Shown: piece by piece, positions 16,125-24,364 of the stretch
Layout of the letters: the number at the start of each line of letters is the position of its first letter
Position numbering within the stretch: the first letter of the stretch is position 1
DNA from: Dissulfurirhabdus thermomarina
GTDB taxonomy: Bacteria > Desulfobacterota > Dissulfuribacteria > Dissulfuribacterales > Dissulfurirhabdaceae
DNA length: 64,000 nt
Direction: 5' to 3'
Assembly: GCF_012979235.1 (NCBI RefSeq)
Contig: NZ_JAATWC010000005.1
Span: 62,001-126,000, forward strand
Program-made: the position numbers and the translations under genes
Notes under the pieces: model-generated
The model's input: only the letters and a program-made list of their open reading frames with translations
What the model was told of the DNA's origin: nothing
The model's database searches: none

Positions 16125-16964
16125 ATGGAGCGGTTTCGGGCGGCCACCTTCAACGTCAACTCAGTGCGGGCGCGCCTGCCGGTGGTCCTCGGCTGGCTGG
16201 AGCGGCACGGGCCGGACGTCCTGTGCCTCCAGGAGACCAAGGTCTCCGACGCGGACTTCCCCGCCGGGGCCTTCCGGCGCCTGGGTTACGAGGTCGTCTT
16301 CCGGGGCATGAAGGGCTACAACGGGGTGGCGGTGGCCGCCCGCGGGCCCGTGGAGGCGGTCCGGACCGGGTTCGGAGATCCGGAGGACACCCCCGAGGAC
16401 CATGCCCGGCTCATCCGCCTTCGGGTCCGGGGGGTGGACGTGGTGAACACCTACGTCCCCCAGGGCCGGGCCGCCGATCATCCCCTCTTCCGGTACAAGC
16501 TCCGGTGGTTCGACCGCCTCCTGGACCTCTTCCGGCGGGAATACCGGCCGGAGCGCCCGCTCCTCTGGTGCGGTGACCTCAACGTGGCCCCGGAGCCTGC
16601 CGACGTCTACGCCCCGGAACGGCTCGCCGGCCACGTCTGCTTTCACCCCGAGGCCCGGGCGCGCCTGGCCCGGGTCACGGCCTGGGGGCTCGTGGACGTC
16701 TTCCGGAGGCACGTTCCCGGGCCCGGGCACTACACCTTCTTCGACTACCGGGTCCGCGGCGCCCTCGAGCGGAACCTCGGCTGGCGGATCGACCACGTGC
16801 TGGCCACGCCGCCCCTGGCGGCGGCCTCCGTGGCCGCCTTCATCGACCTGGAACCGCGGCGCGGGCCCCGGCCCTCGGACCACGCCGTTTTGGCCGCGGA
16901 CTTCGAGGGGGTGCCGGCCGGGGATCAGGCGGGCACCAGCCCCACGAGGTCGCGGGCCGCGTAG
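16125..16964 (+). CDS. xthA: Exodeoxyribonuclease III (AP endonuclease)
   Basis: 279 residues of the exonuclease-endonuclease-phosphatase fold: ATFNVNSVRAR, catalytic LQETK, GYNGVAV, WCGDLNVAP, RIDHVL and the final SDHAVL. XthA removes abasic sites and 3' blocks during base excision repair. The ATG at 16125 (MERFRAATFNVNS) fits family N-termini; an in-frame upstream ATG would add 20 low-complexity residues. The last 40 bases overlap the convergent HDOD gene, and the C-terminal 12 residues after VPAGDQ lie beyond the family core. Confidence 0.93.
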   Translation: MERFRAATFNVNSVRARLPVVLGWLERHGPDVLCLQETKVSDADFPAGAFRRLGYEVVFRGMKGYNGVAVAARGPVEAVRTGFGDPEDTPEDHARLIRLRVRGVDVVNTYVPQGRAADHPLFRYKLRWFDRLLDLFRREYRPERPLLWCGDLNVAPEPADVYAPERLAGHVCFHPEARARLARVTAWGLVDVFRRHVPGPGHYTFFDYRVRGALERNLGWRIDHVLATPPLAAASVAAFIDLEPRRGPRPSDHAVLAADFEGVPAGDQAGTSPTRSRAA

Positions 16965-17806
16965 AAGGCATCCAGGGATCGGGCGATGCACCGGTCGAGG
17001 CTCTCCCCGGAGAGGCCGAGCCGCTCGGCCAGGTCCGGGGCGATCCGGTAGCGGAAGGAATCGCCGTGGACGCCCATGCCGAGGGAGACGGCGAGGATGT
17101 TGCTGAGCGCCATGATCGCCGACAGATCGTCCTGGACGTAGAGGTCCGGGTCGTGGTGGTTGCGGACCGCCCGGCAGATCCCCGGGGGGAAGTTCCACTG
17201 GTGGAGGAGCTCGTAGCCGATGACGGCGTGGTCCGCGCCGAGGACCCGCCACTCCGCCTCGTCGAAGGGCAGGCGCTCCCGTTCCACCAAGAGCCGGATC
17301 TCCTCGAGGCGGATCCCGAGGTGGAGGTCGAGGACGATCTTGCCGAGGTCGTGGAGGAGGGCCGCCGTGAAGGGGAGCGAGGGCTCCCCGTGGCCCAGTT
17401 CCCCGGCCAGGATCTCGGCGGTCACGGCGCAGCCGATGGCGTGGGCCCACAGCTCCCGGGCCGTGAGGCCGTAGCCGTTCAGCGGGCGCGAGAGGTAGGG
17501 AAGGCTGGCGCTCACCATGAGGATCTGGCGGATTTGGTCCGTTCCGAGGAGGGCCAGCGCCGTCTGGAGGTTCGAAACCTGCTGGGGCAGGCCGAAGTGG
17601 GCCGAGTTGGTCACCCGGAGGATGTTGGCGGTGATGGCCTGGTCGTAGCGCAGGAGTTCCTCCACGTCGGCCATGGTGGCCATGGGATCGTCGAGGAGGG
17701 CCAGGGCCTTCTGCACCACCTCCGGGAAGGTGGGGACCTCGGTCAAGGTGTCGAAGACCCGCTCGAGGGTCATGTCGATCTGGAACACGCCGCCGGTGTC
17801 GTTCAC
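16925..17806 (-). CDS. HDOD-domain protein
   Basis: 293 residues, mostly one HDOD domain: PTFPEVVQKALALLDD near residue 25, then VTNSAHFGLPQQVSNLQTALALLG, shown here by NSAHFGLP, and AALLHDLGKIVLD. HDOD proteins are HD-related signalling proteins with roles in cell-cycle, chemotaxis or stress output; most are thought not to be active phosphodiesterases. It overlaps the CheD-like gene upstream by 4 bases (ATGA type), so the two are co-translated and may act together. Confidence 0.85.
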   Translation of the reverse strand: MNDTGGVFQIDMTLERVFDTLTEVPTFPEVVQKALALLDDPMATMADVEELLRYDQAITANILRVTNSAHFGLPQQVSNLQTALALLGTDQIRQILMVSASLPYLSRPLNGYGLTARELWAHAIGCAVTAEILAGELGHGEPSLPFTAALLHDLGKIVLDLHLGIRLEEIRLLVERERLPFDEAEWRVLGADHAVIGYELLHQWNFPPGICRAVRNHHDPDLYVQDDLSAIMALSNILAVSLGMGVHGDSFRYRIAPDLAERLGLSGESLDRCIARSLDAFYAARDLVGLVPA

Positions 17807-18285
17807 AGCCGCACCTCCCGGCCCTTGTCCACCGTCACCGTGACCCCGCCGGTCCTCGTGTCCAGCCGGATGTCACGGTTGGCGGCACCCCCCACGTGCT
17901 CGGCCGCCACGGCGACCCCGTTCTGCTCGAGGACCTTGCGGACCGCCCGGCGCAGCCTGGCCCCGAGGTTCAGGGCGTCCGGCGCCGAGAGGAATTCCGC
18001 CGTCCCGGCCAGGTAGACCTTGAGCCTTGCGGGCTGGGCCGCCTGGTCCACGAGCTCGGCGAAGAAGGCCTTGAGCCCGCGCTCCGTGGATTCCAGGGGT
18101 TCCGGGCCGGCCGGGGCGAAATCCCCGGGGGTCTTCAGGAAGGCGCACACGAGGAGACCGCCGACGCCGGCGGCCTCGTCCCAGGCCGCCACCGCCAGGG
18201 TGGCGCCGAGGGAACGCGCCTCGAGGATCGTGTCGCGGCCGGCGGCGACGGCGTGGGTGCCGGGATGGACCTCTAGGGTCTCCAT
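17803..18285 (-). CDS. CheD-like protein without the catalytic Cys and His
   Basis: 160 residues. The CheD fold is suggested by VHPGTHAVA at the N-terminus, SLGATLAVAAWD where active CheD has LGSCV...YD, GGLLVCAFL where CheD has GGM-H-LLP, and a late VGGAANRDIRLDTRTG segment like the G-RRV.FDT region. CheD deamidates glutamines of chemoreceptors using a Cys-His pair; here the Cys position is Thr and the His position is Val, so deamidase activity is not expected. A binding or regulatory role with the co-translated HDOD protein is my inference. Overall similarity is modest. Confidence 0.65.
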   Translation of the reverse strand: METLEVHPGTHAVAAGRDTILEARSLGATLAVAAWDEAAGVGGLLVCAFLKTPGDFAPAGPEPLESTERGLKAFFAELVDQAAQPARLKVYLAGTAEFLSAPDALNLGARLRRAVRKVLEQNGVAVAAEHVGGAANRDIRLDTRTGGVTVTVDKGREVRL

Positions 18286-18433: not shown

Positions 18434-18495
18434 GGAAGCAGGCGGCGGTGTCAAAACCGGCGTGACGGCGCGGGATGCGAGACGAGGGGGCGGCC

Positions 18496-19530
18496 ATGAA
18501 GGAAGCCATGTTCTACGAAAGGCTCGACGGGGCGGAGGTCCGTTGCCGCCTCTGCCATCACCACTGCCGGATCCGTCCGGGGCGGCGCGGCCTCTGCGGG
18601 GTGCGGGAGAACCGGGAGGGCCGGCTCGTGAGCCTGGTCTACGGCCGGCTCGTCTCCGAGAACGTGGACCCCATCGAGAAGAAGCCCCTCTTCCACTTCC
18701 TGCCCGGCACCACGTCTTATTCCATCGCCACCGTGGGCTGCAACTTCTCCTGCGCCCATTGCCAGAACTACGAGATCTCGCAGTATCCCCGCGTCCACCC
18801 GGACATCATCGGCCGGGAGCGTACCCCGGAGGCGGTGGTGGAGGCGGCGGAGCGCTCGGGCTGCGCGAGCCTCAGCTACACCTACGTGGAGCCCACCGTC
18901 TTCTACGAGTTCGCCTGGGACTGCGCCGGGCTCGCCCGCCGGCGCGGCCTCCGGAACGTCTTCGTCAGCAACGGCTACATGGAGGCGGAGGTCGCGCGCC
19001 ACCTCGCCGGGGTCCTGGACGGGATCAACATCGACGTCAAGGCCTTCACCGAGGACTTCTACCGGAAGGTCTGCAAGGCCCGCCTGGCCCCGGTGCTGGA
19101 CAACGTCCGCCGTTTCCGCGAACTGGGGGTCTGGGTGGAGGTGACCACCCTGGTCATCCCGGGATGGAACGACTCCACGGAGGAACTGCGGGGGATCGCC
19201 CGCTTCATCCGGGAGGTGGACCCCGCCATCCCGTGGCACGTGACCGCCTTCTTCCCCACGTACCAGATGCTCGACCGCCCCCCGACCCCGGCCGACACCC
19301 TGCGGCGGGCCCGGGAGATCGGCCTGGAGGAAGGCCTCCGCTTCGTCTACGAGGGGAACATCCCGGGCGGGGGCGGGGAAAACACCTATTGCCCGGGCTG
19401 CGGCCGGGTGCTCATCCGCCGCCACGGCTTCCGCATCCTGGAGAACCGGCTGGAAGACGGCCGGTGCCGCGATTGCGGCGAGGTCGTCGAGGGCGTCTGG
19501 GGGGCCGGGTCCGCCGCGCCGCCGGCCTGA
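18496..19530 (+). CDS. amrS: Radical SAM protein of the AmmeMemoRadiSam type (AmrS)
   Basis: 344 residues. An N-terminal Cys pattern (RCRLCHHHC, GLCGVREN) precedes the radical SAM motif CNFSCAHC (Cys82, 86, 89), then NYEISQYP, SYTYVEPTVFYE and a C-terminal zinc-ribbon-like CPGCGRVL...CRDCGE. This order fits the AmrS family, related to pyruvate-formate-lyase activases, which is usually found near AMMECR1 and Memo genes; neither partner is in this window. The substrate is not established. The ATG at 18496 is closer to family N-termini than the one at 18475. Confidence 0.88.
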   Translation: MKEAMFYERLDGAEVRCRLCHHHCRIRPGRRGLCGVRENREGRLVSLVYGRLVSENVDPIEKKPLFHFLPGTTSYSIATVGCNFSCAHCQNYEISQYPRVHPDIIGRERTPEAVVEAAERSGCASLSYTYVEPTVFYEFAWDCAGLARRRGLRNVFVSNGYMEAEVARHLAGVLDGINIDVKAFTEDFYRKVCKARLAPVLDNVRRFRELGVWVEVTTLVIPGWNDSTEELRGIARFIREVDPAIPWHVTAFFPTYQMLDRPPTPADTLRRAREIGLEEGLRFVYEGNIPGGGGENTYCPGCGRVLIRRHGFRILENRLEDGRCRDCGEVVEGVWGAGSAAPPA

Positions 19531-20983: not shown

Positions 20984-21346
20984 ATGGCCTGTATCAGCGT
21001 GGACGAGCTCAAGCCCGGGATGGTGCTCGCCCGGAGCGCGGTGGACCGGAACAACCGCGTCCTCCTCGCGGCCGGGACCACCCTCACGGAAGACCACATC
21101 AAGATCTTCCGGGCCTGGGGGGTCACCGAGGTGAGCGTGGAAGGCCGGGTTCCCGGCCCGCCCGAGACCGAGGCGGCGGCCGCGGCGGACCCCGAGCGGA
21201 TCCGGGAGGTCCGGGAGCGGCTCGAGGAGCGGTTCCGGCACGTGGACCTGGAGGACCCCGTGGCCCGGGAGGTCTTCCGCCTGCTGGCCGTCCGGGAGCT
21301 GGGCAGGGAAGGCCGCGAGGAGCGAGAAGATGGCCCGCCATCCTGA
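20984..21346 (+). CDS. Small DUF3391-like protein
   Basis: 120 residues. The N-terminal 55 residues (VDELKPGMVLARSAVDRNNR, then LLAAGTTLTEDHIKIFRAWGV) resemble the domain found ahead of HD-GYP and HDOD domains. A charged helical tail follows. The stop overlaps the HDOD gene start by 17 bases, as if a fused protein had been split in two. It is the first gene of a signalling operon with the HDOD protein and the hybrid kinase. Confidence 0.7.
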   Translation: MACISVDELKPGMVLARSAVDRNNRVLLAAGTTLTEDHIKIFRAWGVTEVSVEGRVPGPPETEAAAAADPERIREVRERLEERFRHVDLEDPVAREVFRLLAVRELGREGREEREDGPPS

Positions 21347-22184
21347 AGACCTGGTCCTCGGGGCCGACGTCTCCTCCCTGCCCGACATCTACCAGCGCAT
21401 CAGCCGGGCGGTGGACGATCCCCTCAGCACCAGCGCGGACATCGGCCGCATCATCAGCGAGGACACGGGGCTCTCCGCCCGGCTCCTCCGCATCGTCAAC
21501 AGCCCCTTCTACGGATTTCCGTCCAAGATCGAGACCATCTCCCGGGCGGTCACCATCATCGGGACCCGCCAGCTCCGGGACCTGGCCCTGGCCACCTCCA
21601 TCGTCAAGATGTTCGAGGGGGTCTCCAGCGACCTCGTGGACATGGAGAAGTTCTGGCGCCACAGCGTGGCCTGCGGCGTGGCCGCCCGGATCCTCGGGAC
21701 CTACCAGCGCTATCCCAACGTGGAGCGGCTCTTCGTGGCGAGCCTCCTCCACGACATCGGCCGCCTCATCCTCTACCTCCAGGTGCCCCAGGAGGCCCGC
21801 CGGGCGCTGACGGCCGCCCGGGAAGAGGGCCGCCTGGTCCGGGATGTGGAGGAGGAGGTCCTCGGCTTCGATCACGCCGACGTGGGCCGCGCCCTCCTCA
21901 AGTTCTGGAAGCTGCCGCCCAGCCTGGTGGAGGCGGTGACCTACCACCACCGCCCCCGGCGGGCCATGCTCTTCCCCGTGGAGGCCGCCACCGCCCATCT
22001 CGCGGATTTCATCGTCAACGCCCGGCAGCTCGGCACCAGCGGCGAGCGCTTCGTCCCGCCCCTCGACGCCGACGCCTGGCGCACCCTGGGGCTCTCGGTG
22101 AACGTCCTGTCGCCGGTCCTGGCCCAGCTGGAGCGGCAGTACAAGGACGTGGTGGCCATGATCATCCCGGTCTACTGTTCATGA
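21330..22184 (+). CDS. HDOD-domain signalling protein
   Basis: 284 residues with one HDOD domain: [37 protein letters not shown] (family hallmark), [17 protein letters not shown] and [13 protein letters not shown]. Its start overlaps the DUF3391-like gene and its stop overlaps the kinase start by 4 bases, so all three are probably translated as a unit. A role in transmitting or tuning the kinase signal is an inference from this arrangement. Confidence 0.87.
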
Positions 22185-24364
22185 AGCGGGAAACGCCCGA
22201 CCCGGAGAAGGAACTGGCGGCCCTCAGGGCCCGGCTCGAACGCCTGGAGGGGCAGTACCAGTGGGCCATGGACTCCCTGGCCCTGGTGGCCTCCATGGGC
22301 GACTTCCCCACCGGGGTCAAGACCGGGGGGGACGCCGCGACGCTCTTCGCCGAGACCCGGCTGCGGCTCCGGAAGCTCCTCGACTTCGAGCTCACCGCCT
22401 TCGCCACGGTGGACGAGGCGGACTCGAGCTTCCGCCTCGCCGACTGCGATCCCGCCGCCCGGACCCGCTTCATCCAGGCCGAGATGGACCGGTGCATCGA
22501 GGAGGGGACCTTCGCCTGGGCCCTCTTCCGGAACCGGGCGGTGATGGTACCTCTCCAGGACGGCACGCGGACGCTGCTCCTCCATGCCCTGGCCACGCCC
22601 TCTCGGGTTCGGGGCATGTTCCTCGGGATCTTCAAGGGCACCTCGGCGGAGGTCAAGGAGGCCACCCTGAACCTCCTCTCCATCGTGCTCCGCCACTGCG
22701 CCAATTCCCTGGAGAGTCTCGAGCTCTACCGGTGGATCCGGGAGCAGAACCAGAACCTCGAGGAGACGGTGCGGCGCCGGACCGCCGAGCTCGAACGGGC
22801 CCGGCGGCAGGCGGAGGAGGCCAGCCGCGCCAAGAGCCGTTTCCTCGCCAACATGAGCCACGAGATCCGGACCCCCATGAACGGGGTCATGGGGATGCTC
22901 GAGCTCCTCAAGGCCACCCCCCTCACCGAGGAGCAGCGCGGCTACGTGGAGACCGCCTACGCCTCGGCCGAGATGCAGCTCGCCATCATCAACGATCTCC
23001 TGGACCTGTCCCGGATCGAGGCCGGCAAGCTCAGCCTCGAGTCCGTGGAGTTCGACGTGGCCGAGGCCGTGGAAGACGTGGTGGCGCTGTTGTCCGAGGG
23101 CGCCCACCGCAAGGGCATCGAGACCGCCTGTTACATCGGGCCCGCGGTGCCCCGGCTCGTGGAAGGGGACCCGGTCCGGTTCCGGCAGGTCCTGGCCAAC
23201 CTCGTGGGCAACGCCGTGAAGTTCACCGAGTCGGGGAGCGTGGTGGTCCGCGCGGGGCGGGAGGTCGGCGACGGCGGCTCCGGCTGGCTCCGCGTCGAGG
23301 TCCGGGACACGGGGATCGGCATCGCCCCGGAACTCCAGCCCCAGCTCTTCCGCCCTTTCACCCAGGGGGACGAGAGCACCACCCGCAAGTACGGGGGGAC
23401 GGGGCTGGGGCTGGCCATCTCCCGGGAACTGGTGGAGATGATGGGCGGCACCATCGGGTTCGAGAGCCGGCCGAGCCGGGGCTCCACCTTCTGGTTCCGC
23501 CTGCCGCTCCGGAGGCCCTCCGCCCCGGAGGAGCGGCGGCCGGCCCTCGAGGGGGAGCGGGTCCTCCTGGTGGCCCCGCCCGGGCCCGCCCGGTCCGTGA
23601 CGGAGGACTACCTCGACGACTGGGGGATGGACTGGGCGGGGGCGGAGACCGCGGACCAGGGGCTCCTGTGGCTCCAGGCCGCTGCGGCCCAGGGACGGCC
23701 CTATCGCCTCCTCCTCCTGGACGCCCGGGTGCCCGGGGTCTCGGATCTCTCCCTGCCCCACGTGGTCAAGGATGACCCGGCCCTGGAGGGGGTGCGGATG
23801 GTCCTCCTCGACGTCCAGGGATCCCGGGTCCTCTCGGGCGAGGGCGCCCGGCTCTTCCATGGCCTCGTCGTCAAGCCCCTCCGAAGGTCCACCTTGCGTG
23901 GCGGCCTGCTCATGGCCCTGGGCCACCCCGAGCAGGAGGAGTCGGCGGCGGACGTCCCGGCCGTGAGGGACCGGTTCTCGGGCCGGGTGCTCCTTGCCGA
24001 GGACAACGAGGTCAACCGGGTGCTCGGCATGGCCATCCTCGGCCGGTTCGGCCTGGATGTGGAGACGGCGGCCAACGGCCGGGAGGCCGTGGAGGCCGTC
24101 CGCCGGGGCCGCTTCGACCTGGTGTTCATGGACTGCCAGATGCCGGAGATGGACGGCTACGAGGCCACCCGACGCATCCGCGACGAGGAGGAGGCCGCCG
24201 GCGACGGTCGCCGGATTCCCATCATCGCCATGACCGGCAACGTCATGGCCGGGGACCGGGAGCGGTGCCTCGAGGCCGGCATGGACGGCCACCTCGGTAA
24301 ACCCTTCACCATCCGCCAGGTGCGGGACATCCTCGCCCGGTATCTCTCTCCGCCCCGGGGGTGA
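22181..24364 (+). CDS. Hybrid sensor histidine kinase with two receiver domains
   Basis: 727 residues, no transmembrane segment. Residues 1-185 hold a coiled coil and a GAF-like sensory region. HisKA follows with [14 protein letters not shown] (phospho-acceptor His227) and HATPase_c with [20 protein letters not shown] and [10 protein letters not shown]. Receiver 1 (about 460-580) keeps the Asp in [10 protein letters not shown] but lacks the N-terminal acidic pair (LLVAPPGP), so it is degenerate. Receiver 2 (about 598-720) is canonical: [28 protein letters not shown]. It is a cytoplasmic sensor, co-translated with the HDOD protein. Confidence 0.92.

Follow-up and report, generated by a model that had tools for sequence, protein, structure and literature searches.

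The genome of Dissulfurirhabdus thermomarina encodes a protein with the fold of CheD, a chemotaxis enzyme that normally modifies sensory receptors, from which the catalytic residues are missing. The best reading of its sequence is a conserved CheD pseudoenzyme for which deamidation or demethylation of receptor glutamines would no longer be possible. We consider it probable (roughly 0.6) that this protein, here called P0001, is kept as a binding partner or regulator of an HDOD-domain effector (P0002), with which it would form one unit. The features discussed below lie within a 64,000-nucleotide stretch of DNA, hereafter the window (Table 1).

Table 1. Features of the CheD-HDOD locus in window coordinates
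Feature	Position	Strand	Basis or remark
P0001, CheD-fold protein without catalytic residues	17803..18285	-	ATG start, 160 aa
Ala23 codon, equivalent to T. maritima CheD Thr21	18217..18219	-	MAFFT alignment
Thr29 codon, equivalent to catalytic Cys27	18199..18201	-	alignment
Val46 codon, equivalent to catalytic His44	18148..18150	-	alignment
Phe98 codon, equivalent to T. maritima Met92 (B. subtilis Met101, CheC interface)	17992..17994	-	alignment
GTGA, CheD stop/HDOD start overlap, 4 nt	17803..17806	-	sequence
P0002, HDOD-domain partner	16925..17806	-	GTG start, 293 aa, Pfam HDOD E 9.8e-55
AmmeMemoRadiSam-type radical SAM gene, divergent neighbour	18475..19530	+	TIGR04337, 366 bits

P0001 passes the cut-off of the Pfam CheD family (PF03975; E 1.1e-13, 51.7 bits versus a gathering score of 25) but does not reach that of the NCBIfam CheD deamidase equivalogs (best score 53.2 bits versus 240). 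Its sole sequence match in the PDB is the CheD from Thermotoga maritima (2f9z_C, E 1e-8). The AF2 model of P0001, calculated from an 11-row alignment with a mean pLDDT of 83.9, aligns with the same chain with a Z score of 21.3 and an r.m.s.d. of 2.1 Å for 144 residues, and Foldseek assigns it to CheD with an E value of 1.5e-12. The next structural matches share the same broad fold, namely NTAN1 (Z about 13.5) and YfiH/YlmD (Z up to about 10). In T. maritima CheD, the established catalytic residues are Thr21, Cys27, and His44. The MAFFT alignment places the T. maritima LGSC motif at L26-G27-A28-T29 of P0001 and GAMAH at G42-G43-L44-L45-V46. The original prediction, which had described a CheD homologue with LGSC changed to LGAT and the His of the GGM-H motif changed to Val, was thus confirmed by both fold and alignment, and it can be extended because the counterpart of Thr21 is also replaced, so that the loss covers three residues rather than Cys and His only. 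P0001 still shares the whole-chain fold, the length, and a GG-N-R motif in the C-terminal region with the CheD deamidases of T. maritima (2f9z chain C) and Bacillus subtilis, from which it differs by the lack of Thr21, Cys27, and His44 and by its location outside a chemotaxis operon.

The HDOD gene lies downstream of P0001, and its GTG start overlaps the P0001 stop codon. The proposed co-translation of the two genes agrees with this four-nucleotide overlap. The predicted model of P0002 (pLDDT 80.9) shares its fold with the Geobacter HDOD structure 3hc1 (Z 25.4, r.m.s.d. 3.5, 274 aligned residues) and with SadB (9qzk, Z 24.1), in which a YbaK-like domain takes the place of the CheD partner; 3m1t is matched with a Z score of 25.0. 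The HD-GYP phosphodiesterase 4mcw is matched with a Z score of 11.9 and an r.m.s.d. of 2.9 for 160 residues. By equivalence to HD-GYP structures, we presume H122, H152, D153, H193, H217, and H218 of the HDOD protein to be metal ligands. All six are retained in 38 of 38 members of the paralogue clade described below, whereas H122 or H152 is missing from the HDOD proteins of some intact pairs. As sequence features, the putative ligands kept in P0002 do not establish metal binding or catalysis. HDOD is a widespread domain. It is described as having no established mechanism and as being without phosphodiesterase activity, and SadB is reported to bind c-di-GMP (PMC6543031). At its other end, the P0002 gene overlaps tail to tail with an exodeoxyribonuclease III gene on the plus strand by 40 nucleotides (16925-16964).

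Searched with the single sequence of P0001, the genome contigs yielded 589 pattern matches, none of them a relative. With a four-row alignment, the contig search gave 12 loci, and the named relatives were Deltaproteobacteria or Thermodesulfobacteriota MAGs. Looking for the same CheD-HDOD pair in other genomes had been suggested together with the original prediction, and a family profile run against 46 order genomes detected the diverged pair in 32 of them. Thirty-one of these copies are full-length; the remaining one (G008) is split across two contig ends and was counted as a carrier but left out of the residue counts. The diverged CheD was found neither in the 11 genomes of family f2 nor in three further genomes (G027, G042, and G045). 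Every full-length copy is directly followed by HDOD (31/31), and none retains Cys and His together (0/31). The recurrence of both the loss and the gene pair in all 31 full-length order orthologues exceeds chance and rules out an event unique to one genome. At a threshold of E <= 1e-6, 21 of the 32 carriers show no other CheD than the diverged protein, or 22 if the G008 fragments represent one gene.

Across the phylum, 395 genomes were sampled, of which 219 contained a match to the family profile. The 75 matched loci that we examined contain 79 CheD ORFs, 73 with intact Cys and His and 52 with an adjacent HDOD gene. When all sampled loci including the order set are considered, HDOD follows 100 of 140 CheD ORFs on the same strand, with the four-nucleotide overlap in 72 of the 100 pairs, and six more CheDs are naturally fused to HDOD (L064, L068, L069, L070, L206, and L209). 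Duplicate loci were removed before counting (L153, L190, and L193, which duplicate L201, L200, and L216, respectively). These counts indicate that the CheD-HDOD pair is common in the phylum with a mostly intact CheD, although the share of paired CheDs is possibly too high because the phylum loci were picked by how well they scored against a profile built on CheDs paired with HDOD. Since pairs with an intact dyad occur across the phylum, the pairing predates the loss of the dyad. The fusions comprise about 450 residues and match the window pair in domain content and order, but they differ in forming one chain, in their intact Cys and His (6/6), and in their separate tree branch. In G416 (L209:2001-3909), a fused intact CheD-HDOD gene lies directly beside a separate pair with a CheD lacking Cys and His. 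A different kind of degenerate CheD, without Cys but with His, was observed as a second CheD at five loci (L062:5220-5741, L132:2855-3364, L134:2829-3341, L138:156-671, and L180:181-684), with no adjacent HDOD and with an intact CheD nearby.

We calculated trees for HDOD (106 rows), for CheD without the catalytic columns (140 rows), and for concatenated CheD and HDOD (55 rows, leaving out L043, L057, and L066 as near copies). The three trees agree on one diverged paralogue clade that includes the order copies, with a support of 100/100 in the concatenated tree. The clade also holds f39 pairs with intact Thr, Cys, and His, f72 pairs in which Cys is kept and His is replaced by Val or Ile, and one G305 copy with Gly in place of Cys. 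Because the f39 members L194 and L196 keep all three residues, activity was not lost throughout the clade. The f39, f72, and G305 pairs also reside outside che clusters, in the orders recG-hom-cheD-hdod (f39 and f72) and serS-cheD-hdod (G305), where the neighbours were named by Pfam for f72 and G305 and by sequence likeness for f39. At two f39 loci (L217:7441-9991 and L218:8955-11508), a mechanosensitive-channel-domain gene directly follows and overlaps the CheD-HDOD genes on the same strand (Pfam match for L218). Outside the clade, the dyad was lost in G416 (L209), with Cys changed to Gly and His to Tyr. The fewest changes on the HDOD tree are six for Cys, six for His, and three for the intact dyad; the last number implies at least three losses, one of them outside the clade, provided that a lost dyad was never regained. 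The sequence trees show the window pair to be a descendant of an intact CheD-HDOD pair.

The relative conservation of the two proteins is reversed in the clade. Among 61 intact pairs, identity is higher for CheD than for HDOD in 1813 of 1830 comparisons (median identities of 50.0% versus 35.9%), but among the 31 order pairs in only one of 465 (33.8% for CheD and 51.9% for HDOD), and in none of 15 comparisons among six f39/f72 pairs. As the sequences are related and the comparisons not independent, we give this reversal as counts without a probability. Its presence in f39 despite the intact dyad seems to place a change of role before, or independent of, the loss of the residues. Fourteen HDOD positions separate the clade (38 members) from the 61 intact pairs, several of them beside the HH motif (R212, D219, L222, Y223, and Q225); W186 is a further clade-specific HDOD residue. 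From these alignments, we read the pattern as a possible shift of constraint away from the active site of CheD and towards the site of HDOD. In CheD, two positions separate the same sets, Phe98 and Pro102: the former is Phe or Tyr in 38/38 of the clade and in 0/61 intact pairs, and the latter is Pro in 37/38 of the clade. Phe98 falls on T. maritima Met92, for which we take Met101 to be the B. subtilis counterpart. The B. subtilis contact pair M101 and F102 corresponds to Phe98-Leu99 in P0001, so that Met-Phe is not kept. Met101 lies at the CheC interface of B. subtilis CheD, and its mutants are reported to have deamidated McpA little (PMC3513319).

Because the active site is lost while the protein is kept in dozens of relatives beside the same partner gene, P0001 probably acts by binding rather than by chemistry. 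According to the mechanism we propose, CheD would be made together with the HDOD protein. Its fold would keep the loop that meets CheC and the receptor in ordinary CheD, now with the clade-specific Phe/Tyr and Pro, and through this loop face CheD could dock to the HDOD partner, to a helical signalling protein (for instance a chemoreceptor), or to both. Docked CheD would then switch or position the HDOD protein, the effector. We infer that CheD and HDOD are in physical contact, that CheD docks to a receptor or another helical protein, and that HDOD provides a metal- or nucleotide-binding output. There is a precedent in B. subtilis, where contact of CheD with CheC is more important to chemotaxis than the deamidation reaction (PMC3513319). 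Compared with CheC-CheD systems, P0001 has Phe in place of Met at the CheC contact, and the HDOD partner replaces CheC.

The genomic neighbourhood bears on whether that helical partner is a chemoreceptor. As originally predicted, chemotaxis genes are absent around the pair: tblastn of the 64-kb window with CheA, MCP, CheW, CheR, and CheB of the same genome found no such gene, and the matches were limited to P0001, two HDOD genes, a kinase ATPase domain, and a receiver domain. In the order loci, scanned for che genes with masking off, L071 and L067 serving as positive controls, an MCP gene lies near the pair in four of 30 others (L039, L040, L046, and L052). Absence of chemotaxis genes nearby is thus usual, but not constant, in the order. 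The same genome carries a second CheD with an intact active site (LGSC, HYMLP) and an HDOD of its own downstream. These two genes stand between those for CheR and CheB in the cluster L071, which encodes CheA, MCP, CheW, MCP, CheR, CheD, HDOD, and CheB. The window pair and this chemotaxis pair are therefore paralogues. The two pairs share the gene order, the four-nucleotide overlap, and both domains, and they differ in the intactness of CheD, in the full chemotaxis cluster around L071, and in their HDOD proteins, which are about 41% identical.

P0001 could accordingly be a chemotaxis regulator that binds MCPs like B. subtilis CheD without deamidating them, with HDOD in the role of CheC. This alternative, which overlaps the binding pseudoenzyme and names one partner for it, has a considerable chance of being right, though one that falls short of even. 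The intact pair between CheR and CheB is in line with it, as is the lack of a plain CheC match in the genome, where the single match to the CheC profile (L085, G000:C2:182994-183101) is CheX-like as read by eye from the sequence. Each of the 32 carriers encodes one or more MCPs and one or more CheW proteins, which leaves a link to chemotaxis as a possibility of much the same modest weight. The three MCP-less genomes of the order (G024, G026, and G036) are also without the diverged CheD, but they all belong to f2, a family without the pair throughout, so that the MCP correlation is confounded by descent. The missing che genes in the window, the rarity of MCP genes at the other order loci, and the altered CheC/receptor contact residue also argue against it.

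The remaining neighbours are listed here as context. At 22 of the 31 order loci, the divergent AmmeMemoRadiSam-type gene is found upstream of the pair, and we claim no part in the mechanism for it; beyond it, hydrolase, purH-like, DsbC, and CoA-disulfide-reductase-like genes occur in 13-17 order loci. Some 3 kb away, the window contains a second HDOD gene (21330-22184, plus strand). Upstream it overlaps a short ORF that matches DUF3391 below threshold, and downstream it overlaps a gene for a hybrid histidine kinase (22181-24364); the three may form an HDOD-kinase cassette (20984-24364, plus strand).

A lone decayed pseudogene was ruled out by the recurrence in the order genomes, the intact frames, and the dN/dS values. 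CheD could still be a relic carried along by the overlap with the needed HDOD start through translational coupling, its product doing little. The faster evolution of CheD than HDOD in the paralogue clade and the repeated loss of catalytic residues would suit such a relic, and the fast divergence could reflect a weakening need as an alternative to a new role. We obtained dN/dS for 11 of 12 chosen pairs; two order pairs with saturated CheD dS were left out, and CheD gave 0.06-0.25 in the seven close order pairs with usable dS, indicating that CheD is still under purifying selection. These values, the intact frames of 153-198 residues in 31 of 31 full-length copies, the two nearly fixed clade-specific positions, and the confidently predicted fold make a relic unlikely. 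A hidden enzyme, in which another nucleophile (e.g., Thr29) or residues contributed by HDOD would restore the site, is highly improbable: Thr is the commonest residue at the Cys27 position of the 31 order copies (16/31) and His130 is retained in 26/31, but the same position also holds Cys (4), Ala (4), Gly (4), Ser (2), and Asn (1), the His44 position varies among Val (16), His (6), Ile (4), Gln (3), Leu (1), and Tyr (1), and no Cys column is conserved. A Cys-His pair elsewhere in CheD, which would have spoken against the original prediction, was not found in the 31 order orthologues: Cys occurs in at most 15 sequences at any one column, and one sequence contains no Cys at all. Both readings fit less well than a binding pseudoenzyme.

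In the literature searched, we found no description of the CheD-HDOD pair and no paper covering both CheD and HDOD. The nearest case there is an HD-domain gene in the group-alpha che clusters of Geobacter (PMC2577667). By analogy, HDOD might be the dedicated partner of CheD, as CheC is in Bacillus, and chemoreceptor, CheD, and HDOD might constitute an unrecognised branch of chemosensory output. The window paralogue would then be a spin-off in which CheD switches an active or ligand-binding HDOD protein outside chemotaxis, a scheme that we put forward as rather speculative. As the chemistry was removed repeatedly while the protein was kept, the diverged pairs make a non-enzymatic role of CheD directly testable, and the constant pairing provides a concrete candidate partner for HDOD.
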